Part shown: positions 1 through 64,000 of the stretch, piece by piece
Numbering within the stretch: position 1 is the stretch's first letter
Layout of the letters: every line of letters starts with the position of its first letter
From: Calothrix sp. NIES-4105
GTDB lineage: Bacteria > Cyanobacteriota > Cyanobacteriia > Cyanobacteriales > Nostocaceae
Reading direction: 5' to 3'
NCBI RefSeq assembly: GCF_002368415.1
Contig: NZ_AP018290.1
Span: forward strand, 1,367,470-1,431,469
Length of the DNA: 64,000 bases
Notes under the pieces: generated by a model
Seen by the model: the letters and a program-made list of their open reading frames with translations, nothing else
Databases searched by the model: none
What the model was told of the DNA's origin: nothing
Position numbers and translations under genes: made by a program

Positions 1-66
1 CAAGTTTGATAATTTATTAAAAAAGACACAAATTGGTTTATTAATTTTTAAAACTCATCAGCTTAG

Positions 67-306
67 TTATTCTTTTGCCGCAAGTTGAATCTTCAGGATT
101 TTATTTTGTTCTCTAAGTACCCCAAGTGAATCAATCTGACAATCGTCAAAAGTCACAGAATCTACATCAATGAAATTTGATATTGCCAGTTCAATAACTA
201 CTTCAGGAGGAAGTTGAGTCTCTTTGGAATATTCGTCTATTGCTTGCCTAATACGTTCTGGCAAGTAGTCTAAAACATTTTTAAGTGCGTTTGCTTCGGT
301 TTGCAT
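67..306 (-). CDS. Small hypothetical protein (79 aa)
   Basis: An acidic, mostly helical 79-residue ORF that starts with MQTEANALKNVLDYLPERIR and ends in a leucine- and lysine-rich helix (EQNKILKIQL). The part around residues 20-45 (IDEYSKETQLPPEVVIELAISNFID) resembles the helix pair of ribbon-helix-helix or DUF-type small proteins found beside toxins, but no family could be assigned. It has no partner gene within the window. The ATG start is followed by a clean open frame and no longer frame competes on the other strand. Role unknown. Confidence 0.55.
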   Translation of the reverse strand: MQTEANALKNVLDYLPERIRQAIDEYSKETQLPPEVVIELAISNFIDVDSVTFDDCQIDSLGVLREQNKILKIQLAAKE

Positions 307-375
307 AGCTATTTACTCAGACAATGGAATTCTAGTGTTATATATCAGTTTGTCAATTTTTTAAAGAATTAGAAT

Positions 376-445
376 GTTGATGGAGCGTGACTTGTAGGTT
401 TTCAATTTTTGTAGTTGGGTCTTGTTCCTTGACCCAACCTACATA
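376..445. repeat. Hairpin interspersed repeat (TTGGGT...ACCCAA type)
   Basis: An inverted repeat with arms GTAGTTGGGTC and GACCCAACCTAC around a short TTGTTCCTT loop. The same CCCAACCTAC motif recurs near 46770-46785 and 63570-63585, so this is one copy of a family scattered through the window. It lies just past the 3' end of the ABC ATPase gene (448, minus strand) and could act as its terminator, but no clear U-run follows. Confidence 0.6.
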
Positions 446-447
446 TT

Positions 448-2106
448 TTATGCTTTTGCTAAGAGAGGCGCCGCAGCAAGTAGAGTTTGGGTATATGGGT
501 GTTGGGGGTTAGCGAAGATTTCTTTAGTGGCGCCAAGTTCGACAATTTTACCACCGTGCATTACTGCGATGCGGTCACATAAAAAGCGCGCTAACCATAA
601 GTCATGGGTAATAAATAAATACGTTAGCTCGAATTCTTCTTTTAATTCCAACATTAAATCTAAAACTTGTGATTGAACGCTTGCGTCTAACATGCTGACG
701 GGTTCATCACAAATTATAAGTTTGGGACGGGTAATTAATGCGCGCGCGATAGCTACACGCTGCTGTTGTCCTCCAGAAAGGTCGGATGGACTACGTTCAT
801 AGTACATTTCAGCAGGCTTTAAACCAACCCGTTCTAACATAGCTATTACTTGCTGCTTCGCTTCTTCTTGTGTAGCTATACCATGAATTAAAAGTGGGTC
901 GGCAATACTTTGTCCAACTGTCATGGCAGGATTTAAGCAAGCGTGCGGGTCTTGGAACACCATCTGCATTTGGCGCCTTTCTTTCCGCATATCTTGACGC
1001 GATAGTGTTGTAAGCTCGGTACCGAGGAATTCAACTTTACCAGCGGTGGGGCGAATTAATTGTAAAATAGTCCGGGATAACGTGCTTTTACCGCACCCTG
1101 ACTCACCAACTAAACCGAGAATTTCCCCTGGATATAGTTCCAAATTTATACCATCGACGGCTTTAATAGTTTGACCTTGACCTTTAAATAAACGCTCGAT
1201 AAAGTTAGGTTCGATTGTATAATGCTGCTTGAGTTCGGTGACTTTGAGTAACGGCGCCTGAGATTTGACGAATTGCGTGTTCTTGGATGGTATTTGATCG
1301 CTCGTTACTTCGTCTATAGATTGAATATGTAAAGCTGCTTTTAATAATGACTGTGTATATTGATGTTGCGGGTTGCGGAAAACTTCGTCGGTAGTTCCAG
1401 TTTCTACCATCTTGCCGAAGTACATCACACCAATGCGCGAACAGTACTCAGCTACCATTGCTAAATCGTGAGAAATTAGCAGTAACGCCATATTCTCTTC
1501 GCTGCATAACCGAGTAAGTTCTTGTAATATTTGTGCGGAAACCGTGACATCTAAACTAGTTGTTGGCTCATCGGCAACTATTAATTTAGGATTTAATAGC
1601 AGCGCTAACGCGATAGCTACCCGTTGCCGCATTCCACCACTAAATTCATGGGGAAATTGGTTCCACCGACTTGCAGGAATTTTAACTTTTTCTAGAGTTG
1701 CAATTGCTCTGTCTTTAGCTTGCTTGTTTGATAACTCTGGTGCATGTGCTTTAAGAGTTTCCAAACAGTGATTACCAATAGTCATGAGTGGGTCGAGTCG
1801 CGTCATCGGGTCTTGAAACACTAACGCGACTACCTCACCCCGAAATTGTCGCATTTGGGGTGGTGTAAAATCTAATACAGATTGTCCTTTATATATAATT
1901 TTTCCTTCGGTGCGTGAACCACCGGGGAGCAACCGCATTACCGCGCGTCCAAGCGTTGACTTACCACATCCTGATTCACCAACTAACCCCATACGCTCCC
2001 CAGGCTGTAGCGTAAATGACACATCATCTACTGCCCAACGTAGTTCTTCATCCGCGCGCTGCGGGTATGCTACACGTAGGTTTTCGACGCTAAATAATTC
2101 GCTCAT
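448..2106 (-). CDS. Oligopeptide/dipeptide ABC transporter, tandem ATPase (DppD-DppF type fusion)
   Basis: Two ABC ATPase domains in one 552-residue chain, each with the extension typical of peptide/nickel importers. Domain 1 (about 3-265) has Walker A GESGCGKST, signature FSGGMRQR and Walker B LIVADEPT. Domain 2 (about 285-545) has a second GESGCGKST, signature LSGGQQQR and Walker B LIICDEPV. The family energises uptake of oligopeptides or related solutes through a DppBC-type permease with a periplasmic binding protein. No permease or binding protein is nearby, so the rest of the transporter must be encoded elsewhere, as is common in cyanobacteria. The substrate cannot be read from the sequence. 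Confidence 0.93.
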   Translation of the reverse strand: MSELFSVENLRVAYPQRADEELRWAVDDVSFTLQPGERMGLVGESGCGKSTLGRAVMRLLPGGSRTEGKIIYKGQSVLDFTPPQMRQFRGEVVALVFQDPMTRLDPLMTIGNHCLETLKAHAPELSNKQAKDRAIATLEKVKIPASRWNQFPHEFSGGMRQRVAIALALLLNPKLIVADEPTTSLDVTVSAQILQELTRLCSEENMALLLISHDLAMVAEYCSRIGVMYFGKMVETGTTDEVFRNPQHQYTQSLLKAALHIQSIDEVTSDQIPSKNTQFVKSQAPLLKVTELKQHYTIEPNFIERLFKGQGQTIKAVDGINLELYPGEILGLVGESGCGKSTLSRTILQLIRPTAGKVEFLGTELTTLSRQDMRKERRQMQMVFQDPHACLNPAMTVGQSIADPLLIHGIATQEEAKQQVIAMLERVGLKPAEMYYERSPSDLSGGQQQRVAIARALITRPKLIICDEPVSMLDASVQSQVLDLMLELKEEFELTYLFITHDLWLARFLCDRIAVMHGGKIVELGATKEIFANPQHPYTQTLLAAAPLLAKA

Positions 2107-2241
2107 AGTTTAATTTATAGATATTTAGTTATTAATAGTCTCAGATACAATATATATAAGGTAAGGATTAATTTTCACATACTTTATCAGATTACTGATA
2201 TAAGACCAAGGTAAATGTTCCCGGACGCTACAAAATTTCTT

Positions 2242-2340
2242 GCAACGGATGTAACGGATGTAACGGATGAGTTACTGGTTGCAAACAAAGTATAGTTATT
2301 TAAAACTACCTATCCGTTACATCCTAGAGTCATCCGTTGC
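2242..2340. repeat. GTAACGGAT tandem/inverted repeat
   Basis: Three direct copies of a nine-base unit (GCAACGGAT, GTAACGGAT, GTAACGGAT) at 2242-2268 face inverted copies (ATCCGTTAC, ATCC, CATCCGTTGC) at 2312-2340, giving a long potential hairpin. The distal arm overlaps the last codons and stop of the 2330-2668 gene. A related copy directly follows the relA stop codon at 5246-5300. Confidence 0.75.
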
Positions 2341-2668
2341 CAATCACAGCCTCGCAATAACTTATAAGAGTTGTAAGACGTTCTAATATGGTATTGAGTC
2401 GAGTTTGAGTAGTCGCTTCGGTACGCGCGCTGCCTAAAAAAGTTATATCAATCTCTAAAAGCCGCAGTTGCTTACTAGTTTCAGTACGGTATTTGACTTC
2501 AAGCGCATCATCGCTAGTTAAAGGCACAATTTCAGTAGCGAAATATTGCTGTAATGAGGTCAGACGCTCTTTAAGCTCCGCTGCGGTTAACTGACTGGCG
2601 CCAACCATTGAGCGTAAGTCCTTCAGTTCAGTGAACAATGTATTATATTTATCTTTAGTTAGAGACAT
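2330..2668 (-). CDS. Hypothetical protein (112 aa), helical
   Basis: A 112-residue, largely helical protein without signal peptide or membrane segments (MSLTKDKYNTLFTELKDLRS...). Heptad-like leucines around residues 10-45 suggest a short coiled coil. No family recognised. It is divergent from relA with about 325 bases between them. The last residues and stop (GGC AAC GGA TGA) lie inside the GTAACGGAT repeat, so the original C-terminus may have been replaced by repeat sequence. Judged real because the frame is long, free of an opposing ORF, and has an ATG start. Confidence 0.6.
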   Translation of the reverse strand: MSLTKDKYNTLFTELKDLRSMVGASQLTAAELKERLTSLQQYFATEIVPLTSDDALEVKYRTETSKQLRLLEIDITFLGSARTEATTQTRLNTILERLTTLISYCEAVIGNG

Positions 2669-2994
2669 CTAATGCTAATTGAGATACTATTAATGTCAAG
2701 TAATTTTCCTAAACACTAATTCTCTCCTGAATTGGATGCCACAAATCTTAATTATTTTGGGGCTTATTTCGCTATTGTCCCCGTTATTTTCCTATCATTG
2801 CTTAATATACGCGCTCAAACTGCATGAGCGCGTAGCTCTTGACAATTCAACGTAGTCGTATATTGACCGTATACTGACTGCTTGCACGCTCGCAACGAAC
2901 TTGATGCGGCACTAAGCCTATCAAGTGATTTCCCTTTTGTAAAGGGGAGTCAAACCAATCGGACTAAACACACCCATTATCTAAACCCAATTGT
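2669..2994. other. Intergenic region upstream of relA, no gene seen
   Basis: About 325 bases between two divergent genes. It contains an imperfect dyad GCGCTCAAACTGCATGAGCGC near 2812-2832 but no ORF or RNA gene that I can support. It presumably carries the promoters of both flanking genes. Confidence 0.5.
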
Positions 2995-5244
2995 ATGAGT
3001 GGCTTACTACTAAATACCCCAGCCGATATCACCCTTCCGGATTGGCTTAAAGATTGTTTAAAAAAGGGAGTATCCGTTGATAAGGCAGAAGAGGAACGAA
3101 GGACAGACGATAATGACTTAATTTGTCGCGCATTTCGATTTGCTTACGATTTGCATGACGGGCAACTTCGTAAGTCAGGGGAACCTTATATATGTCATCC
3201 TGTTGCAGTCGCTGGGTTATTGCGTGACCTAGGAGGCAGTCCTGCTATGATAGCAGCTGGCTTTCTCCATGATGTAGTTGAAGATACAGATGTAACAATA
3301 GAGGAAATTGAGGAGCGATTTGGCGCCGAAGTACGGCGTTTGGTTGAAGGTGTTACAAAACTTTCTAAGATAAACTTTAAAACAAAGACTGAGGGACAAG
3401 CAGAAAATTTTCGCCGTATGTTCTTGTCGATGGCACAAGATATTCGCGTTATCGTTGTAAAATTAGCTGACCGCCTCCATAACATGCGGACAATGGAAGT
3501 TATGTCAGAAGAAAGTCGGCGCCGTAATGCCCAAGAAACGCGCGATATCTTTGCTCCCCTAGCAAACCGTTTAGGGATTTGGCGTTTTAAATGGGAATTA
3601 GAAGATTTAGCATTTAAGTATTTAGAGCCAGAGTCATTCCGGCAAATTCAAAACCTTGTTGCCGAAAAACGTGACGCACGCGAAGATCGGCTCAAAAAAG
3701 TTTCCGACACGCTGCGAAGTCGAATGGTAGAAGCAGGTATTCAATGTACCGACGTTAGCGGTAGACCAAAGCATCTTTACAGTATTTATCAAAAGATGCA
3801 GCGACAGAACAAAGAATTTAACGAAATTTACGATTTAGCAGCACTACGAATAATTGTTAATACCAATGAAGAATGCTATCGTGCGTTAGCAGTCGTGCAT
3901 GATGCCTTTCGTCCAATTCCTGGACGTTTCAAAGATTATATCGGCTTACCCAAACCCAACCGTTATCAATCATTACATACTGGAGTGATTGGTCCTTGGG
4001 GGCGCCCATTAGAAGTGCAAATACGTACATTAGAAATGCACCGCATCGCCGAATATGGTATTGCCGCACACTGGAAGTATAAAGAGACGGGTGGTTCTCA
4101 CAACACCCAAATGAGTCCGAATGATGATAAATTCACTTGGTTACGTCAGTTGTTAGAGTGGCAAAACGACCTCAAAGACGCTCAAGAATATTTAGAAAGC
4201 ATTAAAGACAATCTTTTTGAAGATGATGTTTATGTGTTTACACCAAAAGGTGATGTAGTGCCATTAAGTCCGGGTTCGACGACAGTTGATTTTGCCTATC
4301 GTATACACTCCGAAGTCGGCAATCATTGTTCAGGCGCCCGCGTTAACGGTAAAATGGTACCGCTTTCAACGAGGTTACAAAATGGCGATATCGTTGAAAT
4401 CTTAACGCAAAAGAACAGTCATCCAAGTTTACACTGGTTAAACTTCGTCGCCACATCAGCCGCCAAAAATCGGATCAAACAATGGTACAAGCGTTCACGT
4501 AGAGAAGAGAATATAGCGCGCGGACGTGAGTTGTTGGAAAAAGAGATAGGTAAAAACGGATTTGAAAACGTGTTAAAGTCCGAACCAATGCAAGCAGTTG
4601 CCGAGCGATGTAACTATCAAAGCGTGGAAGATTTGATTGCAGCATTAGGTTATGGTGAGGTAACGCTGAATTTAGTATTAAATCGTTGGAGAGACTTAGT
4701 AAAATCTCAAGAAACGAACGTAATACAGTTACCAATACCAACATCATCACCCAAACGTGAGGTGCCTCCATCATCGCGTATTAGCGACTCACCAATACTT
4801 GGAGTTGAAGGGTTGATGTATCATTTAGCAGGTTGCTGTACACCAATACCTGGTGAAAAAATTATTGGAGCAGTAACGCGCGGTAGAGGAATAACAATAC
4901 ATCGTCAAGGATGCAGTAACCACGAACACATTGAAGGTGAGCGCTTAATTCCTGTAACATGGAACTCTAATATTGAACAGAACGGGCGCTATTCAACATA
5001 CCCAGTAAATGTACAAATTGAAGCATTAGATCGAGTTGGCGTACTGAAAGATATTCTTTCAAAGCTTACTGACCAATGCATCAACGTGCGTCACGCTTCG
5101 GTAAAAACAGCTACTAACCAACCAGCATTAATTGACTTGGGGATGGAAGTACGTGACACCGCACAGTTAGAACAGGTGTTCACTCAAATTAAAAAACTGA
5201 GTGATATTCTTAATATTCGTCGTGTAGGTAATAACGAAGAATAG
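2995..5244 (+). CDS. relA: Bifunctional (p)ppGpp synthetase/hydrolase, RelA/SpoT (Rsh) family
   Basis: A full-length Rsh protein of 749 residues. The HD hydrolase domain (about 45-200) keeps the metal-binding histidine in ICHPV (residue 68) and the HDVVED motif (92-97), so hydrolase activity should be intact. The synthetase domain (about 250-370) has the RFKDYIGLPKPNRYQSLHT block. A TGS domain (about 412-475, DDVYVFTPKGDVV) and a C-terminal ACT domain (about 670-745) follow. The family makes pppGpp/ppGpp from GTP/GDP plus ATP and degrades it, controlling the stringent response; many cyanobacteria have a single such enzyme. The stop is followed two bases later by a GTAACGGAT hairpin repeat that may terminate transcription. 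Confidence 0.96.
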   Translation: MSGLLLNTPADITLPDWLKDCLKKGVSVDKAEEERRTDDNDLICRAFRFAYDLHDGQLRKSGEPYICHPVAVAGLLRDLGGSPAMIAAGFLHDVVEDTDVTIEEIEERFGAEVRRLVEGVTKLSKINFKTKTEGQAENFRRMFLSMAQDIRVIVVKLADRLHNMRTMEVMSEESRRRNAQETRDIFAPLANRLGIWRFKWELEDLAFKYLEPESFRQIQNLVAEKRDAREDRLKKVSDTLRSRMVEAGIQCTDVSGRPKHLYSIYQKMQRQNKEFNEIYDLAALRIIVNTNEECYRALAVVHDAFRPIPGRFKDYIGLPKPNRYQSLHTGVIGPWGRPLEVQIRTLEMHRIAEYGIAAHWKYKETGGSHNTQMSPNDDKFTWLRQLLEWQNDLKDAQEYLESIKDNLFEDDVYVFTPKGDVVPLSPGSTTVDFAYRIHSEVGNHCSGARVNGKMVPLSTRLQNGDIVEILTQKNSHPSLHWLNFVATSAAKNRIKQWYKRSRREENIARGRELLEKEIGKNGFENVLKSEPMQAVAERCNYQSVEDLIAALGYGEVTLNLVLNRWRDLVKSQETNVIQLPIPTSSPKREVPPSSRISDSPILGVEGLMYHLAGCCTPIPGEKIIGAVTRGRGITIHRQGCSNHEHIEGERLIPVTWNSNIEQNGRYSTYPVNVQIEALDRVGVLKDILSKLTDQCINVRHASVKTATNQPALIDLGMEVRDTAQLEQVFTQIKKLSDILNIRRVGNNEE

Positions 5245-5245
5245 T

Positions 5246-5300
5246 GGCAACGGATAAAACGGATGTAACGGATGTTTTATTCGTTACATTCCGTAACTAT
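5246..5300. repeat. GTAACGGAT hairpin repeat after relA
   Basis: Units GCAACGGAT, AAACGGAT and GTAACGGAT followed by the inverted arm CGTTACATTCCGTAAC. It is the same family as the copy at 2242-2340, so two copies flank the relA locus. It can fold into a hairpin starting immediately after the relA stop. Confidence 0.7.
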
Positions 5301-5365
5301 TATTGCTTTATCTAGCTATGATGGAGGTAAATGATTTCAAATATTAGAGTTATCACCCAACTGTT

Positions 5366-6433
5366 ATGTTAAGCGACCTAACAATCCACAATTATCGTTC
5401 CCTGCAAGACTTTCATATTGATGGATTAGCACAGGTTAATCTTATCGTCGGTAGTAATAACAGCGGTAAAACAAGTTTATTAGAAGCTATTTATTTACTA
5501 GTCAATCAAAATAATCCTCAATCAATGATTGATTTACTAGATAATCGGGGGGAAATTGCTTTATCTAAAACTTCCAACCTCTCGCATAGCTATCAGATTA
5601 AGCATATATTTAATAATCATCAACTAAGTTTTAATCATAATATTAATATTCAATCTCGAGAGCAAAGTCCTCTCAAATTACAAATTAAATTATCGTTAGC
5701 AAATAATCAAGAAGAATTAGATGAATATATTTCAGAGAATGAATTACCTATATTGACGCTGGACTTTGCTTATAACTCACATCAAGAACTTAAAATACCA
5801 GTATATGAGGATGGAACGTTAGAAGCAAGAATTTTTAGAACAAGGTCAGCAAAGTCATTGTTAGAATTAACTCCTCCGGCTTGCAAATTTTTAACTACAG
5901 AGAATACTAATTTTAACCAATTAAGTACACTTTGGGATTCAATTAATTTAACGCCTAAAGAAGACGAAGTAGTAAAAGCATTACAAATTATTGAACCGCA
6001 TGTAGAACGTATTAGTTTTACAAGTAGTCGAAATAGTAACGTAATTGTAAAAATGCGCGGGCACAGTGACCCTGTACCTTTAGGCAGTATGGGGGATGGT
6101 ATGAGGCGCCTTCTGACTTTAGCGTTGTCTGCGGTAAATGTTGAAAACGGTTTTTTATTAATTGATGAAATCGATACTGGTCTTTATTACGAAGTCCAAG
6201 CCGACATGTGGCGCCTAATTTTAGAAACAGCGCATCGACTCAATATACAAGTGTTTGCAACAACACATAGTTGGGATTGCGTTCGTGCATTTGAAGAAGC
6301 ATTAGAAGATGCAAATGATAGCACAATTGGAAAATTATTTAGATTGGATTCAAAATACGGCAAAATCCGTGCAGTAGAGTATTTAGCCGAAGAATTAAAA
6401 ATTGCTATAAAGCAAAATATCGAGGTACGTTGA
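5366..6433 (+). CDS. ABC-type/SMC-like AAA ATPase (AAA_15/AAA_21 type), partner of TOPRIM protein
   Basis: A 355-residue ATPase of the OLD/RecF-like class. It opens with LTIHNYRSLQDFHIDGL, then Walker A GSNNSGKT (29-36), an ABC-like signature around PLGSMGDGMRR (238-247), Walker B FLLIDEID (263-270) and a switch histidine in TTHSWD (299-304). There is no TOPRIM domain in this chain; the next gene supplies one and overlaps it as TGATG, implying translational coupling and a shared complex. In OLD, Gabija and PARIS-type phage-defence modules such ATPases sense a trigger and control a TOPRIM effector. A defence role here is inference; a DNA repair role is the alternative. Confidence 0.85.
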   Translation: MLSDLTIHNYRSLQDFHIDGLAQVNLIVGSNNSGKTSLLEAIYLLVNQNNPQSMIDLLDNRGEIALSKTSNLSHSYQIKHIFNNHQLSFNHNINIQSREQSPLKLQIKLSLANNQEELDEYISENELPILTLDFAYNSHQELKIPVYEDGTLEARIFRTRSAKSLLELTPPACKFLTTENTNFNQLSTLWDSINLTPKEDEVVKALQIIEPHVERISFTSSRNSNVIVKMRGHSDPVPLGSMGDGMRRLLTLALSAVNVENGFLLIDEIDTGLYYEVQADMWRLILETAHRLNIQVFATTHSWDCVRAFEEALEDANDSTIGKLFRLDSKYGKIRAVEYLAEELKIAIKQNIEVR

Positions 6434-7080
6434 TGCCAAAAAAAATTCAATCATCACAATTGCTTGTTGAAGGGAAAAACGACATACATGTGATTTGGGC
6501 TTTGTGCCACATGTATCAGCTACCAGAAACATTCTCTGTAGAAGTAGCAAACGCTTCGGAAACAGAAGGAATTGAGGCACTTTTAAATGGATTACCATTG
6601 AAGCTAAGAGAAAAAAACTTGGAAATATTGGGAATTGTAGTTGATGCTGACCAAGATTTAGCCGCGCGCTGGCAAGCAGTAAAAAGTAGATTAAGAGCAA
6701 GTGGTTATCAAAATATACCTGAAACTCTAACACAATCAGGATTAGTTCACATTGAGCCAGAATTACCCAAAGTTGGAGTTTGGCTAATGCCAAATAATCA
6801 ACTTCCCGGAATGTTAGAGGATTTTGTTAAGTGTTTTATTCCCGATGACGATACACTACTACCCAAAGCTGAACTTGTCCTGCAAGAAATTGAACAAGCT
6901 AATCTTAACCCATACACATTGATTCATCGACCTAAAGCATTAATACATACTTGGCTCGCTTGGCAAGAAAAACCCGGTATGCCTATGGGACAAGCAATTA
7001 CAGCAAGGGTATTACATCATGATTCGGCGCCTGCAATTATATTTGTTGAATGGTTAAAACGTTTATTTAATCTGCCTTAA
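6433..7080 (+). CDS. TOPRIM-like DUF3226 protein, effector partner of the AAA ATPase
   Basis: About 215 residues starting at the ATG that overlaps the upstream stop by one base (TGATG); a TTG three bases earlier is also possible. The N-terminus has a TOPRIM-like glutamate motif LLVEGKND and, about 55 residues later, VVDADQD with two acidic residues. A conserved-looking block WLMPNNQLPGMLEDF follows. This arrangement (E, then DxD, then a late acidic motif) fits DUF3226/DUF4435-type TOPRIM nucleases, the class of effector used by PARIS (AriB) and OLD-type systems. I infer a metal-dependent nuclease acting with the upstream ATPase. No signal peptide or membrane segment. Confidence 0.8.
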   Translation: MPKKIQSSQLLVEGKNDIHVIWALCHMYQLPETFSVEVANASETEGIEALLNGLPLKLREKNLEILGIVVDADQDLAARWQAVKSRLRASGYQNIPETLTQSGLVHIEPELPKVGVWLMPNNQLPGMLEDFVKCFIPDDDTLLPKAELVLQEIEQANLNPYTLIHRPKALIHTWLAWQEKPGMPMGQAITARVLHHDSAPAIIFVEWLKRLFNLP

Positions 7081-7184
7081 AACATTTGTATATAGACTTG
7101 GCGCTCTTGTGTAGCGTCATAAACACGGGAACATCAAAGTGTTTGATTACCGTCACAATTTTATCTATATATGAGACTTATGGC

Positions 7185-7817
7185 ATGTTACCACTTGATA
7201 AAGTAATTTTTTTGCTGTTTTTTCCGGCTTGCGTTGGTTTATTGACCCAAGTTATTTGGGGTATAGAATTAACTAATCAATTGGTAGCATCGGGGACTTT
7301 TATATTTTGCATTGAACAAGCTCGAATGGCTGTGAAGGATTTACGGCAGATAGAAGATGCAAAAGCACTTGTTCAAGATGTACGCTTAGATACTTTTTAT
7401 CAAGTTACTCTTATTACTATCGCTGTTGAGCTTTTAGGTTTTTATATATCGATAGTTTGGTTAGGATGGGGATCAATTGTAATTTTACTGAGCCAAATTT
7501 GGTTTAATTTGCTTGCCTCTGTTAAAATTCAATATCCAAATCAAGTTGCTGAAAATATATTAAAAGTTGATAATTATAATTTTTCTAACACCTCGGCTCT
7601 TACTTTATCGGCGCCTGTATTACTAAATGCAGTACCAATTTATGTAAGATATTGGAAAATATCTGAACGTTTACCTGTATTAATTGCTGATATTTTAGGG
7701 TTAGTTTTAATTAGCTTTTGGATGCTACAAATTGGCTCATTGTTTATATCTTGGGCACTGTTTGCAATGGTAATCGTTTATGGAATAGCTAAATTAATTC
7801 TGCTTTTGTCTCGCTGA
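7185..7817 (+). CDS. Hypothetical multi-pass membrane protein
   Basis: About 210 residues from the ATG at 7185; the frame stays open upstream to a TTG at 7086, only five bases after the TOPRIM stop. Four or five hydrophobic stretches (VIFLLFFPACVGLLTQVIW, VTLITIAVELLGFYISIVWL, the segment around LVLISFWMLQIGSLF, and a final IVYGIAKLILLL) flank a cytosolic-looking loop with charged residues (QARMAVKDLRQIEDAK). No family recognised. Its proximity to the ATPase/TOPRIM pair makes it a possible third component, but the gap to the ATG (about 100 bases) also allows independent expression. Confidence 0.6.
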   Translation: MLPLDKVIFLLFFPACVGLLTQVIWGIELTNQLVASGTFIFCIEQARMAVKDLRQIEDAKALVQDVRLDTFYQVTLITIAVELLGFYISIVWLGWGSIVILLSQIWFNLLASVKIQYPNQVAENILKVDNYNFSNTSALTLSAPVLLNAVPIYVRYWKISERLPVLIADILGLVLISFWMLQIGSLFISWALFAMVIVYGIAKLILLLSR

Positions 7818-8336: not shown

Positions 8337-8339
8337 TTC

Positions 8340-23283: not shown

Positions 23284-24534
23284 CTATACATTCATTTGAG
23301 CTATTAACTCACGTGCATATCCTATAGCTTCGTCGAAGGTGGAAACCTTACCTTCGACTTGTGCTACAGCTATTTCTGTCAACATTTGACCAACCAGTGG
23401 CGAAGCTGGTATATCTAATGCTATAATCAGTTCCTTCCCACTTAATAAGGAAGTGGGATGAGCCACCGGATCATCAGGGTTAAGGTAGCGGGCGATTATT
23501 GGTGCAATGCCCTCTACCAAATTATCACAAGCCATTGCCATTATACACGTCGCGGGCAATACACTTTCCGCTTCTTTGAACAAAAAGTATTGTTCGCGTA
23601 ATGGCATTTGTGCTTTTTTTAACTTAGGGTAGAGTTTGAGTACAGTAAGTACTGCTTTTATTTCAGCGCGACTATAAGTAAGTTCTGTTAGCTCAAGTTC
23701 AGCTTGTTCTAAATCAGGACTTACGAGACATGCAAGCTTGGCAATACCAAGCCATGTTGTTTTTATAGTATCACGGACGTATGTATTTAGCTCAATTCCT
23801 ATCTGATGCCAAGTTTGAGATAATATTGTGTAAGCTTCATCAACTTTCAACAAACTTACACATCCATCTTTAGTAGTATTTTTAAAGAATGGTGTTAGTA
23901 ATTTATCTTCAATAGCTTTAATTATCCAAGCGGTTCCGTGAGAATTTATTAGCATGTAACTCAGTTCAGTACGTACTCTTTCTGAAGCGACTTGAGTTAT
24001 ATATGGCGCCAAAGTACGAATAGTATTTTGAGTATGGCTTTCAATATCAAAACCTAATTGTGCAGCTTGACGATATCCGCGTATTAACCGCAGAGGATCA
24101 TCTTCAAGGTTATGTTCTGATATCATCCGTAATACGCGCGCTTCGATATCAGCGTAACCTTGAAGCGGGTCGATAATTTCTTGAGTGTGAGGGTTAAACG
24201 CGATAGCATTGATAGTAAAATCACGTCTAAATAAATCTTTTTCTAAGCTGTCTCCTTCCTGTTGGGCAATATCTACTGTCGCATTGGCAAATACTACCCG
24301 TGCAATTTGTCTTTTGGGGTCAAGCAAAACAAACCCTGCTTTGTAGTGTGCAGCTAGTTTTTTGGCTGCATTAACTGCATCAACAGGCAGTACAAAATCT
24401 AAATCTATATCCTCACGCTTTCTACCTAATATCGCATCCCGAACGGCGCCACCGACTAGATAAACAGGTTGCGGCAACAAGTTTAAGTCAAAAGGATAAT
24501 TTTCGGCAGATAGAAGAGGTAAAGGTTTGTACAT
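23284..24534 (-). CDS. cca: CCA tRNA nucleotidyltransferase
   Basis: Class II nucleotidyltransferase of about 416 residues from ATG 24534 (a TTG ten codons upstream also fits). The head has VYLVGGAVRDAILGRKREDI then DLDFVLP, which carries the metal-binding DxD pair, followed by FRRDFTINAIAFNP, IDPLQGYADIEARVLRM and the RLIRGYRQAAQLGFDI block. It adds or repairs the 3'-terminal CCA of tRNAs. The gene is divergent from ycf34. No HD phosphohydrolase domain was recognised. Confidence 0.93.
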   Translation of the reverse strand: MYKPLPLLSAENYPFDLNLLPQPVYLVGGAVRDAILGRKREDIDLDFVLPVDAVNAAKKLAAHYKAGFVLLDPKRQIARVVFANATVDIAQQEGDSLEKDLFRRDFTINAIAFNPHTQEIIDPLQGYADIEARVLRMISEHNLEDDPLRLIRGYRQAAQLGFDIESHTQNTIRTLAPYITQVASERVRTELSYMLINSHGTAWIIKAIEDKLLTPFFKNTTKDGCVSLLKVDEAYTILSQTWHQIGIELNTYVRDTIKTTWLGIAKLACLVSPDLEQAELELTELTYSRAEIKAVLTVLKLYPKLKKAQMPLREQYFLFKEAESVLPATCIMAMACDNLVEGIAPIIARYLNPDDPVAHPTSLLSGKELIIALDIPASPLVGQMLTEIAVAQVEGKVSTFDEAIGYARELIAQMNV

Positions 24535-24619
24535 GTTAATAAAATAAACCAGAAGTTTAGTCAATAACGCTGTTGGTTGAGCTAAATTAACAATACAAGG
24601 TTATGGAGTTGATTCTGTT

Positions 24620-24951: not shown

Positions 24952-25880
24952 TTATCTATTTTTATCATCGCTGTCTATTATTTCCCTCTCAATAATTTCC
25001 TTTACCAATTCAGAAATATCTACATTAAGTATATTTGCTTGTTGTTTCAATCTCTCATAAGTATCTATTTCATTACCTTGCCACAATAAGTCAATTCTTC
25101 TGACTTGTCGCATTGCAATGTGAGTATAATTTTCAGGATATGCCCAATAGCAAGACAAACATATAGATTTATCTTTCAAATTTATCCAATTTTCACAATG
25201 CTCACATGACCAAGATTTAACTCTATTTGCAGAACCGCACAACAACTTCAAGGAAGAGACGCGGAGACTGGGGGACGCTCTTACGCGGGGATATCTCAGA
25301 TGGGGATTGAACCCCAACGCTCGTTAGACAACAAGAGCGAAATTGGGGTTGAGCGACATGAAGGGGCTGCCGCCCCGGACGCGGGACGTAGATACTCTCC
25401 GCGTAAGAGCGTCTCTACGCCCCGCGTCTCTTCGATAAAATTTTCTGGCAGTAACTCTGGTTCTCCATCAACTTCAAACGGGACACGGTGGTCTATTTGC
25501 AGTTCTCGCTCCGGAACTTCTTCTAGATATATAAAACATTTACAACCATATCTCTTGACTAATTCATCTTTTATCTGTTTAGATAAACCTGTTCTACCAG
25601 CTATTTTGGAAAATCTAGCTGTGCTAATATCTCCAAATTTATAAGCAGCTATCTTCCGTCCATCTGTTCCTGTGACACGAAATGTTTCTAGAGGTACTCC
25701 AAGTTCTCGTACATCCCTAGCTGCTCTTGGAGGATGATTATAACCATATCTTTGTTTCAAGTCTTCCGTTGTGACAAAGCCATGTTGCAATATATGATCT
25801 ATAACAGCTAATGGTCTTTTTGCTGTTACTGCTTGACATATTTGTATAAAGTCATCAGGTAATTGTTGGGAACTATCCAT
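24952..25880 (-). pseudogene. HNH restriction endonuclease gene disrupted by a hairpin element
   Basis: The 5' part (25880 to about 25435) encodes MDSSQQLPDDFIQICQAVTA and on to ELQIDHRVPFEVDGEPELLP then ENF, with the HNH-type DH pair. The 3' part (about 25250 to 24952) encodes KLLCGSANRVKSWSCEHCEN, ICLSCYWAYPENYTH and a C-terminal helix, with CxxC...CxxC zinc-ligand pairs. Between them is about 185 bases of GC-rich inverted repeat that shifts the frame and brings a stop at 25296. The gene immediately follows an adenine methyltransferase (one base between), so it is the nuclease of a type II restriction-modification pair, almost certainly inactive now. Confidence 0.82.
25250..25434. mobile_element. 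~185-bp GC-rich hairpin element inserted in the HNH gene
   Basis: Ends are inverted: GGAAGAGACGCGGAGACTGG...GACGCTCTTACGCGG on the left and CCGCGTAAGAGCGTCTCTAC...CCGCGTCTCTTCG on the right, about 40 bases with several mismatches. The centre contains a second dyad (GGGGATTGAACCCC and AACGCTCGTT/AAGAGCGAAATTGGGG). G+C is visibly higher than the flanks. It encodes no transposase, so it is MITE-like and would need help in trans. Restoring TTTTAT to GAAGTTG across the element rejoins the coding frame. Confidence 0.75.
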
Positions 25881-25881
25881 C

Positions 25882-26787
25882 TTAATTTTTTAAGGCGAGT
25901 TCTTTATATACAGGGAAAAAATCAACTTTTGTATTTTGCAAGTGATGAATTAATGCATTAGATAAATATAATGATTCTACAGTTATTTCTGTTTTACCTA
26001 AAAGCGTTGCTTGAGCAGAACGTCCTACTTGAATTTGGACTCTTTTAAGATTTAGGGTTTTAGGTAATTCGTGACCAAAAGTTTTACTTCCGCGTTTTCC
26101 ATCGTAACTAACTGCAAATAATATATCTTTTTGATTTAATTCTTCAAGTGATGAAACAAACCTATCAAAATCTATTCCTGCATAGTATCTTGAGTCTCTA
26201 TTACCACATACTCCTTGATAAGGAGGATCCATGTAAACAAAATCATCACTCTGAACTTGAGATAAAACTTCTTGATAATCAAAAGATGTAAATATACATT
26301 TGCCTTTGAGTAACTTTGAAACTCTTTCTATATTATGCCGCATTTTTTCTGGTTGAGTTCCCTTTCGTCTTTTATCAGGACTTTGATTAAATAAACCTTC
26401 CTTGTTATATCTAACTGCTCCTTTAACGCATCGAGCTAAAAGGTATAAAAAAAGTTTTGGGTCGTTACTAGTATTAAATTTATCTCGAATTTGATAATAA
26501 TGTTTGATTGAATCACCTATTTGCTCGTTCCATACTTGTGAATATGCGTTTGCCACATCATAAGGATGCTCAATAATTAATTCCAAGAGTTGCATTAATG
26601 GTTTGTTCAGGTCGTTTATCCAATATTCCTGAGAAACTTGTCGTGCAGATGCAGCGATGCTAATGGCAGCAGTCCCCGTAAATGGTTCTACCAATCTTTC
26701 TATTTTCTTAGGTAAAAAATTGAGAACGGTTGAGGCAAGACCTCTTTTACTTCCTTGATACTGAATTGGATGTGGCAAATTACCCAT
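25882..26787 (-). CDS. DNA adenine methyltransferase, D12 (Dam) class
   Basis: A 301-residue N6-adenine methyltransferase. Motif X is near the N-terminus (IQYQGSKRGLASTVLNFLP), motif I is VEPFTGTAAIS (33-43) and the catalytic motif IV is DPPY (187-190, VYMDPPYQGV). The D12/alpha-type order matches Dam and type II orphan enzymes. It lies one base upstream of the broken HNH endonuclease gene, so it was the protective methylase of a restriction-modification system and is now probably an orphan. The recognition sequence cannot be read from the protein. Confidence 0.92.
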   Translation of the reverse strand: MGNLPHPIQYQGSKRGLASTVLNFLPKKIERLVEPFTGTAAISIAASARQVSQEYWINDLNKPLMQLLELIIEHPYDVANAYSQVWNEQIGDSIKHYYQIRDKFNTSNDPKLFLYLLARCVKGAVRYNKEGLFNQSPDKRRKGTQPEKMRHNIERVSKLLKGKCIFTSFDYQEVLSQVQSDDFVYMDPPYQGVCGNRDSRYYAGIDFDRFVSSLEELNQKDILFAVSYDGKRGSKTFGHELPKTLNLKRVQIQVGRSAQATLLGKTEITVESLYLSNALIHHLQNTKVDFFPVYKELALKN

Positions 26788-26941
26788 TTTACGATAGAGT
26801 GTTTATCAATGATAGTTTTAAATACAAATATTCTACCACAAGCTGTTAATACGCAACACAGGCGCCAAATCTACAAAAATCGTTCTATCATAATTTCATC
26901 TATATATAGCAATCCTAAATCATTTATGAAATTTTAAACAT

Positions 26942-27491
26942 TCATCTTCTTTTTCTTCCTTTGTGTCCTTTGTGACGAGCGTGGTTCATTACAGTAAAAT
27001 CACTACCTGTTGCAATCATACCAAAACAGGGTTTTTCGGTATTTGGACTACCTAACATATAAGCAATAATTTGTGCTAAACCTTCTTCAATTGAAAAAGA
27101 AGCTTTTTTCGACTCAATTATCATTACCCATAATTGTCCTTTAAAAATCAGCGTATCAATTCTACCTTTAATAGTTACATCTTCGCTTTTGTTCGGCAAT
27201 ATCTACAGATTCTTCTGCTTTAACATAAAAAGGAGAGAGGTAAAAATCTCCAATAAAAAGTATTGGATCAACAATTGCCATTCTGACAACATCTTCTAAC
27301 AAGGGAGGGTAGTTAAGAAGGTTGACATAACCAGCTTTAACTTTATCTAAAAGCTGTTTATCTAAATCTGTAAGCTCAGGTAAATCATGTTGCCATTCAT
27401 GGAAAAATTGCTCATCTAAAACTAAATCAATACCAAAATTATCTATTAAGTAACGAAGATCAACATATGAAGCTTGTTTTATCTGTATCAT
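26942..27491 (-). pseudogene. Frameshifted type I restriction R-like/HsdR_N-type nuclease domain
   Basis: The 5' frame (27491 to 27168) encodes MIQIKQASYVDLRYLIDNFG and on to DFYLSPFYVKAEESVDIAEQ, then diverges to KRRCNY stop. The second frame (from about 27185) gives SEDVTIKGRIDTLIFKGQLW, VMIIESKKASFSIEEGLAQI and IAYMLGSPNTEKPCFGMIAT. GRIDTLIF..IESK is a PD-(D/E)XK nuclease core. Both parts belong to one cyanobacterial family. The end, MNHARHKGHKGRKRR, is translated from a CACAAAGG repeat, so the true C-terminus has been lost as well. Confidence 0.78.
26945..26992. repeat. CCTTTGTGTCC interspersed repeat
   Basis: TCTTCCTTTGTGTCCTTTGT followed by GACGAGCGTGGTTCATT. One of at least six copies in the window (16480, 33945, 46665, 49130, 63215). 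It overlaps and ends the nuclease pseudogene. Confidence 0.75.
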
Positions 27492-57424: not shown

Positions 57425-57514
57425 GCGGTCAATTATTTTACCTTATTAGACACAGAGTTAACAGAGAAGAGGAATGAACCGCACTCGCACGCATCCGCTC
57501 ATTCGTATACAATT

Positions 57515-57955
57515 TTAAATAGTTAAATAAGTTTCTGTCGGACTAATAGGTAGTACTTTAAGGTGCTGATTTTTCAAGTCTAATTCTAAACCTAATGCTT
57601 CAAGCGGAATTACACCCAACAAGGGATTTTTTCCTCCTGGTAATTCTAGACACTCAAAAGTTCCTTCTCTACCATCAACGTTTATTTTTGCATCTTGAAA
57701 AACTCTTGTTGTTCCAATACCCATAGCCGTCACAACATCAACCTCTTTTAATACTCTCAAACCCAGTTTTGCAATAATCTCTGCTGGCAAGCACAAAGTC
57801 GTAGCTCCGGTATCCACTAATACATTCTCAAGCGTGACTGAACGTACTTGCTCTTCTGCTAGAAATCCAGCTTCTGCTAAAATCTGGTCAGCATTATTGA
57901 TTATAGTTATATTTGTAAAAACTTTACCCATTTGATTTTTATCTTGAACTTGCAT
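57515..57955 (-). CDS. Retropepsin-like aspartic protease
   Basis: 146 residues with VRSVTLENVLVDTGATTLCL then PAEIIAKLGL: the D-T-G-A triad (Asp48) is the single catalytic aspartate of dimeric retropepsin-type clan AA proteases. Downstream LGVIPLEALGLELDLKNQHL with ...G.IPLE is the typical family block. It would act as a homodimer in the cytosol; the substrate is unknown. Complete, ATG start, on its own transcript. Confidence 0.88.
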   Translation of the reverse strand: MQVQDKNQMGKVFTNITIINNADQILAEAGFLAEEQVRSVTLENVLVDTGATTLCLPAEIIAKLGLRVLKEVDVVTAMGIGTTRVFQDAKINVDGREGTFECLELPGGKNPLLGVIPLEALGLELDLKNQHLKVLPISPTETYLTI

Positions 57956-58138
57956 TTTGATTCTCCTTAATTACCACTAAAAATGGAAATTCTGAGCATT
58001 TGTATTATATTGTATAACCAGTACGCACTAAAGAAGTGGCGCCTGTGAATCTTACAAATAGATGCTTCCCCAACAGTCAAGCTATAACCACTCCAATATC
58101 AATTGATACAAGTTTTGTGTACCTGTTAAATTTTACAT

Positions 58139-59953: not shown

Positions 59954-60058
59954 ATCTAAACATGTTAGTACATAACTATGTACTTTGACTACACGTATTA
60001 ATTAGAGAGTTTGAGTTGTTCGCAGGAATGAAACCAGAAGAGAATGCAATTCGTAATA

Positions 60059-61267: not shown

Positions 61268-61501
61268 TTTTTATCATTTCTTAGCTGCATGAATTGTACC
61301 AAATCAAAAGCAAAAACACAAAACCCAAACACAAAAAGGTTTTATAGACCACTACGACTACTATTTTTCTCCAAACCCTTGACTATATTTTTACTTTATA
61401 GTATATATGTATTAAGTTAAATTTTTGTGTTGAGAATATTATAAACGATTTGAGTTAAAAAATTGATGAGTAATTAATTTAATTATAGAGGAGTGGAGTT
61501 A

Positions 61502-61924
61502 ATGAAGCTATCGAGATTAAACTTGGGCAATGTTGTAGCAGTTGGTCATGCTTCTGGGCAGTTACAGTTGTTACTGCAAGGAGAAGACGACCTTGAGTTA
61601 ATCGAAGTAGAGGCGCCTGTAGAAGCATTTGAGGGGTTGCAGCGATTGAATAATATAGTTGCATCGGTTTCTTGCAATGCTTTGACAGCAAAAGAACCTA
61701 TAGCAATGCTGCCTGTCGATTCATCTCTTGCCAATGCTGTTGGGTATGATGCAGAAAATCATGTGCTGCAAGTGGAATTTCAAAATGGCGCAGTTTACCA
61801 ATATACAGGAGTTGATGATGAAGTTTGGGATGACTTACAACAAACTGATTCGATTGGTAAATATTTTAACCAAGAAATCAAAGGTAATTATCAGTGCGCG
61901 CGGGTCGATCTAGACTGCTGTTAA
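61502..61924 (+). CDS. KTSC domain-containing protein
   Basis: About 140 residues from ATG 61502, preceded by GAGGAG. The C-terminal half, AVGYDAENHVLQVEFQNGAV then YQYTGVDDEVWDDLQQTDSI and GKYFNQEIKGNY, is the KTSC domain (short strand-rich module ending GKxxNxxIKGxY) found in lysyl-tRNA-synthetase and phage proteins. The N-terminal half (LSRLNLGNVVAVGHASGQLQ) is another small strand-rich region. Role unknown; RNA-related binding is guessed from the family. Confidence 0.85.
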   Translation: MKLSRLNLGNVVAVGHASGQLQLLLQGEDDLELIEVEAPVEAFEGLQRLNNIVASVSCNALTAKEPIAMLPVDSSLANAVGYDAENHVLQVEFQNGAVYQYTGVDDEVWDDLQQTDSIGKYFNQEIKGNYQCARVDLDCC

Positions 61925-61987
61925 CTACCTACTTTAAACGTTCCTGGTTGCTCCTGGCTAATTGTCGTTCACAATTAGCCATTTCTT

Positions 61988-62950
61988 TTAGAATTTGAGC
62001 TTAAACTGATTAGTTGTGTTAAATTTTGTATCGCGATTTAAATAAAAATTATTACTGTAATTGATTTTACGATGATATGCCCAAACACTAGAAGTAAAGT
62101 AATCAAGGGTTGGCGCCATCATTTTATCAATTTCGATGGGTATAAATTTACCAGTGACAGATGTTTTAGGTTGTACAGGTAAAATAGATCTAGATTTGGT
62201 GATTATAGCTGTATAAGAATTAGGTTTAGATTGATTTGCCCAGAGTATATAAGTTTGAATAGGAATACCAAGACTTCGAGCAGTGCGGATACGGTAGAAT
62301 TCTGGATTTAACTTTGGAATATCGTAGCTAAATATTTCTACTTTCCCGTTTATACCAACTAACTCACCTTGCTCATTCACTATTGGGCCACCGCTCATCC
62401 CAGGTAATACAGGATTATCATAAACTAAACTATAACCTTTTGCGGATATAGGCTTTGATTGCGGAGCATTAAAAATAACCTTACCGGAAACAAAATGGTA
62501 AATTGGACGCATGATAGCTATTGTACGTCCAGGAAAACCAGCAGAATAAATCTTTTGATTACGCTGTAGCGCTTCAGAATTACCTAACTTAGCAACTTGA
62601 TAATTAACGTTACTTGTGAATTGAACAATTGCAGCGTCAACTCCGGGAAGTTGATTTACGCTACCTGCTTTTATGGGATAACTTTGACCATCTGGTGTAA
62701 TAATCTGATAATTAGAAATAGTTGTATCAACAACATGCCAGTTGGTAAGTACAGAGTAGACATTTCCTTCCTTTTTGATAATAACTCCAGACCCTGAAGA
62801 CTTATCAATACTATCGATTAAAACTGTAAACTTTTGTGTAATCGCATCTACTTGATTTTCAGTTTGATTTTCGGTCTGCGCGACAGCTACTTGCGCTTGT
62901 ATAATAAAGACAGACATTCCTGCCACTGCAAATAGTGAAGTGAATTTCAT
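61988..62950 (-). CDS. Exported trypsin-like serine protease
   Basis: 320 residues. A signal peptide (MKFTSLFAVAGMSVFIIQAQ then VAVA) precedes a trypsin-fold domain with the triad: His in VLTNWHVVD, Asp in LPGVDAAIVQF and Ser in PVLPGMSGGPIVNEQGELVG. There is no PDZ domain, so it is not a standard DegP/HhoA. Probably acts in the periplasm or outside the cell on misfolded or surface proteins. The C-terminal 90 residues are low-homology. Confidence 0.88.
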   Translation of the reverse strand: MKFTSLFAVAGMSVFIIQAQVAVAQTENQTENQVDAITQKFTVLIDSIDKSSGSGVIIKKEGNVYSVLTNWHVVDTTISNYQIITPDGQSYPIKAGSVNQLPGVDAAIVQFTSNVNYQVAKLGNSEALQRNQKIYSAGFPGRTIAIMRPIYHFVSGKVIFNAPQSKPISAKGYSLVYDNPVLPGMSGGPIVNEQGELVGINGKVEIFSYDIPKLNPEFYRIRTARSLGIPIQTYILWANQSKPNSYTAIITKSRSILPVQPKTSVTGKFIPIEIDKMMAPTLDYFTSSVWAYHRKINYSNNFYLNRDTKFNTTNQFKLKF

Positions 62951-63690
62951 TCAATTTAAAACTGTGAGGATTGAAGATGCAACAAACCTAACGAATACAG
63001 TAAATTTACACAATATACTTCAACAAAAAAATAATCTTAGTTAATCAATTCTTTAAATTAACTTTTTGAGGACTTAGCGTTAAATTATACAAATTTAAAA
63101 AATAAAAACACGCTTTTTAGTCAATATAAATACGCAATTAGATGTTTATTGGTAATAAATACTACTAATTTTCATAGTGTATAGCAATCCGTTGAGGAAT
63201 TGTAAAAATCACTCTTCTCTTTCTTTGTGTCCTTTGTGTCCTTTGTGGTTCGTTAGATAAGCCTAGTTTTTATAAATGATGCGCGGAATGCTATAGTACC
63301 AATTTAATATAAAGCTGTAACTAATTAAATCCCCCTTACAGAGCGCGAGTTCGGGGGGAGCTAAGAATAATAATGTGCATCTTCATATAAAAATGGTATA
63401 GTAAAAATCAAAATGTAAATATATTTCTATAAGTACAACTAATATAACCGTTTAAAAATTTGATTGTAGATTGGGTAAAGGCTTTGCGTTCACGTAGTCT
63501 TCCGTAAACGTAGTTTTCCCGCAGGGTAGGAAAACCCAACATAAACACTTGTCGGAGTTGGTAGGGTTCCTCCACCCAACCTACGGGCTTGTAATATTTC
63601 TTTATATAGATACATTGATTGAATAACCGACTATAATCTTATTGTTATTGAGACTGTATCACCGTAGGTCATATTTGCATCTATCTGTTT
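62951..63690. other. Intergenic region with several repeats, no gene seen
   Basis: About 740 bases. It contains a CCTTTGTGTCCTTTGTGTCC repeat (63218-63256), a CCCCC...GGGGGG hairpin (AAATCCCCCTTACAG then GAGTTCGGGGGGAGCT, 63328-63363), and a GTTGG...CCCAACCTACG element (63550-63588). No coding frame could be supported. Confidence 0.5.
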
Positions 63691-63691
63691 G

Positions 63692-63830
63692 AAGTGGGTA
63701 GCTTAATCCCTATTTACTAACAGTGAATTGGGAACGGAGGAACCAATGTTTGGGGCTAATCTATAGTAGAGGCACCTTCCAGCCTTCGCCCGTCAGCTAA
63801 CTCCGTAAGCTGTGGAAGGAACCCCCCTTG
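63692..63830 (+). ncRNA. ydaO/yuaA-type cyclic di-AMP riboswitch
   Basis: The order of conserved blocks matches the ydaO consensus: GCTTAATCCC, then TTGGGAACGGAGGAACCAAT, GGGGCTAATCT, AGAGGCACCTTCC, then the hallmark CGCCCGTCAGCTAACTCCGT with AAGC and a closing GGAAGGAACC. These are the elements that form the two c-di-AMP pockets. It reads on the plus strand and is 120 bases upstream of a gene cut by the window edge. In cyanobacteria such switches usually control wall-active or osmotic genes; ligand binding normally turns expression off. Confidence 0.92.
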
Positions 63831-63950
63831 TGTAAATGCGTTCGGCAATTTATTAGGGGTTTCCTTATCATTGATTTTAGATTTATGTATATTAAATCTA
63901 AAGTTGAGATTTCCACTTTTCTTTATTCGTTTCTTTATATTGGAGAGAAG

Positions 63951-64000
63951 TGAAAGCTGTGAAAATCAAGCCAATGTTGACTCGACTTCAAAATACTATC
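63951..64000 (+). CDS. Start of a gene under the riboswitch (cut by window edge)
   Basis: A GTG at 63951, preceded by GGAGAGAA, opens VKAVKIKPMLTRLQNT and runs off the window; an alternative GTG (63960) and ATG (63975) are in frame. Only about 16 codons are visible, so the product cannot be named. By position it is the first gene under the c-di-AMP riboswitch, for which cell-wall hydrolases or transporters are common. Confidence 0.5.

Follow-up and report, generated by a model that had tools for sequence, protein, structure and literature searches.

GGCGCC in place of HIP1 throughout a Calothrix genus: a palindrome probably kept as a methylation-coupled mark

A palindrome repeated through the window and the genome

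The stretch under study, hereafter the window, comprises 64,000 bases of Calothrix sp. NIES-4105 (NCBI RefSeq assembly GCF_002368415.1, contig NZ_AP018290.1, positions 1,367,470 to 1,431,469 of the forward strand) and is strewn with the six-base palindrome GGCGCC, which occurs 103 times against 3.1 expected from base composition. A first-pass annotation, made from the sequence alone, had arrived at about 100 sites where about three were expected by chance and had noted the absence of the usual cyanobacterial repeat, highly iterated palindrome 1 (HIP1, GCGATCGC); our counts agree on both points, with HIP1 found 0 times in the window and CGATCG once. The sites start at the following positions:

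GGCGCC, sites 1 to 26 of 103: 467, 529, 972, 1253, 2597, 3322, 3518, 4001, 4333, 6105, 6210, 7026, 7610, 8658, 9366, 10417, 10909, 11041, 11251, 11899, 12070, 13053, 13251, 13501, 13571, 14188
GGCGCC, sites 27 to 55 of 103: 17063, 18627, 18819, 19228, 19739, 19994, 20271, 20828, 21486, 21658, 22895, 23032, 24005, 24445, 26861, 27622, 27759, 28221, 28487, 28586, 29511, 30068, 30689, 31152, 32513, 32912, 33245, 33667, 33745
GGCGCC, sites 56 to 82 of 103: 35490, 36238, 36505, 37341, 39316, 39384, 40387, 40877, 41652, 42137, 43271, 43439, 43691, 43835, 44222, 44660, 45390, 45449, 46098, 47106, 47475, 47844, 47866, 48638, 48875, 49227, 49376
GGCGCC, sites 83 to 103 of 103: 49881, 50007, 50422, 51107, 51163, 53662, 54267, 54497, 54633, 54688, 54714, 54828, 56299, 56698, 58038, 59009, 59325, 59444, 60178, 61612, 62112

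Under a maximal-order Markov model 46.5 sites would be expected in the window, an expectation that is nearly circular because GGCGC and GCGCC are inflated too. The spacing of the sites is very even (variance/mean 0.35 in 4-kb bins), an evenness that fades in larger samples, to 0.76 in the NIES-4105 genome and 1.63 in its congener Dulcicalothrix desertica PCC 7102.

The enrichment is a genome-wide feature and not peculiar to the window. The whole genome (12,037,678 bases in 8 contigs) holds 18,131 GGCGCC, or 1,506 per Mb; the reversed pattern CCGCGG, itself avoided, occurs 7 times, and HIP1 is present in 125 copies against 75 of its reversed control. In a 324-kb chromosomal sample we counted 501 sites where base composition predicts 17.4 and a second-order Markov model 26.5, which makes GGCGCC the top over-represented 6-mer (28.7x and 18.9x, respectively), followed by CGCGCG (11.9x and 4.1x). 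GGCGCC near its Markov expectation, or HIP1 abundant elsewhere in the genome, was what the first-pass annotation had named as fatal to its claim; GGCGCC stands far above that expectation and HIP1 is rare genome-wide. Six of the seven non-chromosomal contigs were sampled (C2 to C7, C8 being left out): C2 to C6 carry 356-3,000 GGCGCC per Mb, the sample of C6 amounting to 3 sites in 8.4 kb, and C7 has a single site in 3.7 kb.

The sites had also been described as lying in many codon contexts and between genes, and so they do. In the open reading frames (ORFs) of a 504-kb sample, called mechanically, GGCGCC occurs 642 times against a mean of 37 after 100 synonymous-codon shuffles, and all three frames are in excess (341/120/181 against 15.6/10.1/11.8). 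Density reaches 1,779 per Mb within ORFs and 985 per Mb outside, where 141 sites are found. The 8-mer core for which a test had been suggested did not emerge: the flanks show mild preferences only, chiefly a G rarer just outside the site, and a longer core is ruled out. As for the other forms of GRCGYC, GACGCC reaches 0.32 of its expected count in this genome and GACGTC about 0.1.

Other words depart from expectation as well. There are 55 CGCGCG sites in the window; in the six genus members sampled CGCGCG reaches 6-11x and GCGCGC 5-7x composition, and CGCGCG is in excess in all three reading frames of the 504-kb sample. GATC, GGCC, TGCGCA (0 against 104 expected) and TTCGAA (0 against 107 expected) are strongly avoided in the 324-kb sample, which suggests past or present restriction systems.

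A genus-wide exchange of palindromes

Seven genomes represent the genus: NIES-4105 itself (G000), Calothrix PCC 7103 (G115), Calothrix PCC 7716 (G138), D. desertica PCC 7102 (G127), Calothrix FI2-JRJ7 (G030), the metagenome-assembled genome C42_A2020_038 (G101) and Calothrix HK-06 (G076). In a draw of 192 family genomes, all seven carry 7,475-20,380 copies of GGCGCC, and the remaining 185 have at most 1,053, a maximum reached by a genome (G089) with 1,270 copies of the control pattern. HIP1 is reduced to 31-163 copies in the seven, as compared with 535-7,734 in 56 other genomes from 55 genera. The trait is shared by three deep branches of the genus, which are 78-85% identical in nucleotides; NIES-4105 and PCC 7103 are 86% identical over their alignable parts. 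The lineage-wide replacement of HIP1 by another palindrome, which the first-pass annotation had raised as a possibility, is real, and GGCGCC takes the place of HIP1 in all seven genus genomes searched.

No strong case of a second independent GGCGCC lineage was seen among 292 genomes drawn across the phylum, where the genus was represented by NIES-4105 alone. One candidate, G395, was rejected with HIP1 present and GGCGCC at just 1.9x in a 52.6-kb sample. Another, G259, is not a strong case, with 5.1x GGCGCC at 56% G+C in a 15-kb sample (L264); the genome of this distant cyanobacterium, 3.8 Mb long, contains 9,489 GGCGCC and 2,450 of the control pattern, against 304-343 GGCGCC in each of three members of its genus.

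The methylase that accompanies HIP1 is missing as well. We followed a methylase from G009, which is probably the CGATCG enzyme to judge from its near-universal presence beside HIP1: relatives (at least 50% identity over at least 340 residues) occur in 52 of the 56 outside genomes, G009 included, and in none of the 7 genus genomes, five of which give best matches of 36-38% (E up to 1e-40) and two none. In the six sampled members of the genus, GATC falls to 0.07-0.28 of its expected frequency. One outside genome, G022, is low in HIP1 (535 copies in 10.7 Mb) and has GATC at 0.02 of expectation in an 80-kb sample (L124-L127); it keeps the HIP1-linked methylase and is without a close relative of the GRCGYC methylase described below, and no replacement palindrome was seen in that sample.

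An orphan methylase of probable GRCGYC type

Searching NIES-4105 for the C5 methylase family gives 17 matches, one of which, together with two related copies, is linked to GGCGCC and lies outside the window:

G000:C1:10505801-10506793, minus strand: putative GRCGYC-family methylase, 331 residues
C2 224659-225561: related methylase copy
C3 333544-334443: related methylase copy (both copies 61-62% identical to the 331-residue protein)

The 331-residue protein belongs to PF00145 (E = 1.2e-65); by eye, PCQ and ENV motifs were read, along with a TI motif with an arginine eleven residues upstream. Relatives are present in 7/7 genus genomes (80-100% identity) and in 15 of the 56 outside genomes (58-71%), a count that includes G034, whose gene is split over two contigs, and leaves out G003 (a 129-residue stretch) and G044 (33%). 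Outside the genus, GGCGCC counts differ between the 15 carriers (median 4) and the 41 non-carriers (median 42; Mann-Whitney p = 6.5e-4), as do those of the control pattern (p = 0.02), and GACGTC is found at most 15 times in 13 carriers (exceptions: G021, 153; G042, 28) and in 10 of the 41 non-carriers.

The two methylase-neighbour genes tested in carriers proved to be RE_HindVP (E = 1.6e-149 and 9.6e-161). A profile search of 63 genomes found this nuclease family (PF09519) in 13, all of them carriers outside the genus (13/15) and always adjoining the methylase match, several of the genes being partial or interrupted by stops; it was found in 0/7 genus genomes, which are to that extent without the cognate nuclease of an active GRCGYC restriction-modification system. 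In an independent set of 52 methylase loci, tblastn detected RE_HindVP at 33 of the 45 from other genera and at none of the 7 from this one. The two carriers lacking it are G045 (3 GGCGCC, depleted) and G021 (277 GGCGCC, not depleted). Within the genus, the chromosomal methylase copy adjoins a RuBisCO-like protein gene in 6/7 genomes, as judged from the ORFs read in each and a Pfam run on one. Family membership, the nuclease partners and the site avoidance of relatives suggest that the genus methylase is of GRCGYC (BsaHI/HindVP) type.

A GRCGYC methylase also occurs in loci of Hassallia, Tolypothrix brevis, Spirirestis and Plectonema, with no nuclease within the available stretch (up to 10 kb on each side); these loci hold 0-1 GGCGCC and 15-28 HIP1 each. 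Together with G022, they imply that neither change, the fall of HIP1 or the possession of an orphan methylase, suffices by itself in these cases. The first-pass annotation had suggested a possible tie of the exchange to a different methylase or repair process: the methylase half has gained a candidate, since a 5-methylcytosine (m5C) enzyme of the GRCGYC family is implicated, and of the repair half there stands that the sites are kept or restored, with no match to the Vsr repair protein in 63/63 genomes. The specificity of the methylase listed above is a predicted one.

The window does carry a methylase gene of another class:

25882..26787, minus strand: D12-class adenine methylase (PF02086, E = 4.5e-36)

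This enzyme had been set aside as the cause and is unlikely to be it, because GGCGCC contains no adenine. It adjoins a 194-residue ORF (the two spanning 25296-26787) without Pfam match, HNH-nuclease-like by eye, so that the pair may be a restriction-modification system. A repeat of about 195 bases (25243-25439), with at least 7 more copies in the same genome at 98-100%, overlaps the 3' end of this ORF, and a repeat of about 95 bases lies at 26902-26997, with at least 7 more copies at 83-100%. Next to the pair is a gene resembling CCA tRNA nucleotidyltransferase by eye (23284-24564), and a similar gene adjoins the GRCGYC methylase in G019 (L071 2675-3913); this neighbourhood is perhaps a common insertion hot spot.

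Turnover of the sites

Changes at the sites were followed in five congeners about 5% apart, of which four were aligned to PCC 7103 over 236.7, 206.9, 120.2 and 49.1 kb, with NIES-4105 as the outgroup (135.9 kb aligned). Alignments below 85% identity (congeners), below 74% (NIES-4105) or shorter than 300 bases were dropped, as was the overlapping NIES-4105 stretch L025, and G101, with 6 kb aligned, was kept out of the turnover counts. The state shared by the other congeners was taken as ancestral, and 14 multi-base changes at sites were set aside.

GGCGCC is conserved as a six-base unit, beyond codon effects. Sites are intact at 71-74% between NIES-4105 and PCC 7103, where the hexamer mean is 47%, and at 89% and 82% between PCC 7103 and PCC 7716. 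At synonymous third positions, bases within the site are retained more often than those of identical codons outside it in 8/8 comparisons (p < 0.05 in 7, 0.06 in the eighth); for GCC the figures are 97.2% against 78.6% to PCC 7716 and 88.5% against 48.9% to NIES-4105. Conservation of the whole neighbourhood is ruled out, as bases 1-10 outside the site change at about the background rate.

Within the site, a single position is fast. The inner C went to T, on either strand, at 84 of 2,046 C positions against 679 of 34,474 control CpG (p = 9e-10) and accounts for 84 of the 107 single-base changes, while all other one-base changes hit 23 of 1,023 GGCGCC sites against 1,272 of 17,237 controls (p = 6e-13). 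Among 203 sites with GGCGCC in NIES-4105, the T form is confined to one congener or common to all in a ratio of 30:1, as compared with 181:378 for control CpG (Fisher p = 2e-13), a contrast whose size is inexact because CpG gained in the NIES-4105 lineage are counted among the fixed changes of the control. The rate and the 30:1 pattern argue that the inner C mutates fast, as expected of a methylated C, and that its T product is transient. Singleton T forms stand at 12.9% in PCC 7103, 11.1% in HK-06, 8.0% in FI2-JRJ7, 5.7% in PCC 7716 and 4.3% in PCC 7102; they may stem from base-calling error at methylated C.

The reverse change, GGTGCC to GGCGCC, was seen at 5 of 47 chances against 540 of 61,458 (0.88%) for control TG to CG, a 12-fold excess on which we do not rely, the outgroup confirming one event, contradicting one and being absent for three. 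The chance of a further GGCGCC is clearly lowered only within about 100 bp of a site (five species), with no further rise towards 1 kb. The profile of Vsr (PF03852) matched 0/63 genomes and 5 of 14 control genomes.

Conservation was also followed for two other palindromes. In HIP1-rich relatives, 7 of 8 directed comparisons (5-15 sites each) show HIP1 better kept than the other 8-mers. CGCGCG is intact at 62% and 48% between PCC 7103 and PCC 7716; from NIES-4105 to PCC 7103 it is at 23% (33/145), where GGCGCC is at 74%, and in the opposite direction at 69% (33/48), like GGCGCC at 71%. The conservation evidence for CGCGCG as a second HIP is mixed.

Discussion

We consider it probable that GGCGCC is the alternate HIP of this genus, kept as a methylation-coupled mark after the loss of the nuclease and of the HIP1 methylase. 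We infer the following order of events, as well as the reason why the symmetric form is favoured. An ancestor would have lost the methylase accompanying HIP1 and HIP1 itself, while GATC turned strongly avoided, and a GRCGYC-type m5C methylase would have been kept after its HindVP/BsaHI-type nuclease was lost. With cutting gone, the site of the orphan methylase may have shifted from avoided to favoured, the favour being limited to the fully symmetric GGmCGCC; among the GRCGYC forms, only GGCGCC has a G followed by methylated C (G-mC) on both strands. A reader of G-mC, such as Elhai proposed, would agree with enriched GGCGCC beside low GACGCC and GACGTC, although the low counts of the latter two may also reflect past restriction. 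Deamination of the inner mC would keep generating GGTGCC and GGCACC, variants that would be removed before fixation. Most of this removal, we think, would be due to selection in favour of a methylated mark spread densely over the genome and probably read in DNA repair, recombination or chromosome maintenance. That GGCGCC is methylated in vivo is suggested by one trace in the sequences, the C-to-T footprint at the inner C. A bolder version, which we hold to be less likely than not, is that a restriction-modification remnant founded a genome-wide epigenetic mark: loss of the nuclease, in a lineage already deprived of HIP1 and its methylase, would have turned an avoided site into a selected one, with thousands of copies fixed throughout the genus and now kept against steady deamination by selection on their methylated state.

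Several points weigh against our main reading. All seven genomes belong to one clade, so that the gene losses together count once, without statistical association, and could be a coincidence. The orphan methylase alone does not lift GGCGCC in the four other cyanobacterial loci, and G045 is depleted (3 copies) though it has no nuclease; the low GGCGCC of carriers goes with a difference in the control pattern too. The fixation contrast is inflated by CpG gained in the NIES-4105 lineage to an unquantified degree, and just one of the five apparent regains is outgroup-confirmed. To our knowledge, no reader protein has been described.

Selection on a methylated mark is nonetheless the explanation we prefer, and its main alternative, unlikely as we judge it, is biased repair or gene conversion, in which mismatch repair guided by G-mC (Elhai's model) or heteroduplex conversion makes GGCGCC and the sites bring no benefit. 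This alternative predicts favour for the G-mC forms only, as the enrichment of GGCGCC beside GACGCC at 0.32 and GACGTC at about 0.1 would have it, albeit restriction avoidance could also lower those two; it is in keeping with the transience of site losses, and the regains at GGTGCC point the same way, to the extent that five events of uneven outgroup standing can. Other results speak against it. In its saturating form, the bias vanishes once another site lies within about 1 kb, so that second sites should be scarce over that whole distance, and the deficit seen in five species reaches about 100 bp; the flanks do not mutate less, and no Vsr match turned up in 63 genomes. Neutral mutational pressure that makes the motif, with nothing to keep it, can point to the over-representation of CGCGCG and GCGCGC in all six genus members sampled, so that some GC-rich bias may exist. 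We give it hardly any credence, since the favoured change leads away from the motif (C to T, at twice the control CpG rate) and yet the losses are unfixed.

An uptake or self-recognition signal, by which the motif would mark own DNA for natural transformation and hence spread and be conserved, is very unlikely. Thousands of chromosomal copies, presence on most sampled replicons, strong conservation and genus specificity would all fit it. Against it, six bases are rather short for such a signal; it also predicts no link to methylases, whereas the swap goes together with the lack of both the HIP1-linked methylase and the GRCGYC nuclease. Composition or codon usage, finally, might yield the motif through preferred Gly-Ala or Arg codons, and the frame GGC GCC is indeed the commonest (341/642); an artefact of this kind is refuted by the codon shuffle (642 against 37), which all three frames exceed, by the 141 sites outside ORFs, and by the better retention of third bases within the site than in identical codons outside it.

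Relation to known systems

The exchange of HIP1 for GGCGCC is itself already published, in the congener PCC 7103. The sections of Elhai 2015 (PMC4390886) cited here name GGCGCC as alternate HIP in Calothrix PCC 7103 and in fragments of Calothrix D253, report depletion of HIP1 and GATC together with two GRCGYC methylases in PCC 7103, and portray alternate HIPs as scattered occurrences that do not follow clades; the model given there requires a methylated inner C, and the paper notes that the methylated position had not been established for any such enzyme. NIES-4105 has the density of an alternate HIP, a GC-rich palindrome at about 500-2,500 per Mb (here 1,506), and the low HIP1 that goes with it (125 copies). 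With PCC 7103, as far as those sections describe it, our case shares the motif, the loss of HIP1, the depletion of GATC and the proposed methylase specificity; it differs in being genus-wide instead of sporadic, in the absence of the partner nuclease from the genus, and in that an inner-C footprint and the transience of losses were measured and kb-scale saturation was not seen. Our literature search, outside which most subscription journals lay, brought up no later account of GGCGCC in the role of a HIP, and no printed mention of its spread over the whole genus, of the orphan BsaHI/HindVP-type methylase, of the footprint at the inner C or of the transient losses.

As to the enzyme family, M.BsaHI methylates the central C of GRCGYC, according to the part of PMC2413257 consulted, which in GGCGCC is the inner C that goes to T, and GRCGYC is listed for H. 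influenzae Rd by RIMS-seq (rapid identification of methylase specificity) in the part consulted of PMC8565308. Like the BsaHI/HgiDI/HindVP family as outlined in the former source, the genus has a PF00145 methylase whose relatives lie beside RE_HindVP, and the TI motif with its arginine eleven residues upstream, as read by eye, is common to both; unlike in that family, no nuclease was found in the genus (0/7), and 6/7 chromosomal copies adjoin the RuBisCO-like gene. A different comparison is offered by E. coli. There, very-short-patch repair by Vsr inflates Dcm-related motifs, and a process of this sort would likewise connect the abundance of a motif with an m5C methylase and with deamination of C to T; the 0/63 matches to PF03852 speak against Vsr-driven inflation here.

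HIP1 has been without an agreed function for decades; selection on it was reportedly analysed by Xu, Lawrence and Durand in 2018. GGCGCC is, as HIP1, a GC-rich palindrome found about once per kb within and between genes, and differs from it in its letters, in having no GATC core and in its methylase. Our results sharpen this old question and open no new kind of system. A genus with another palindrome in place of HIP1 makes it easier to tell features that may count, namely the density, symmetry and methylation of a G-mC site, from one that does not, the letters of HIP1. The cyanobacteria offer a natural comparison in this respect: nuclease and methylase together go with avoidance of the site, a methylase without neighbouring nuclease where HIP1 is kept goes with no rise, low HIP1 without the GRCGYC methylase (G022) goes with no replacement, and both changes together, in this genus, go with a new HIP.

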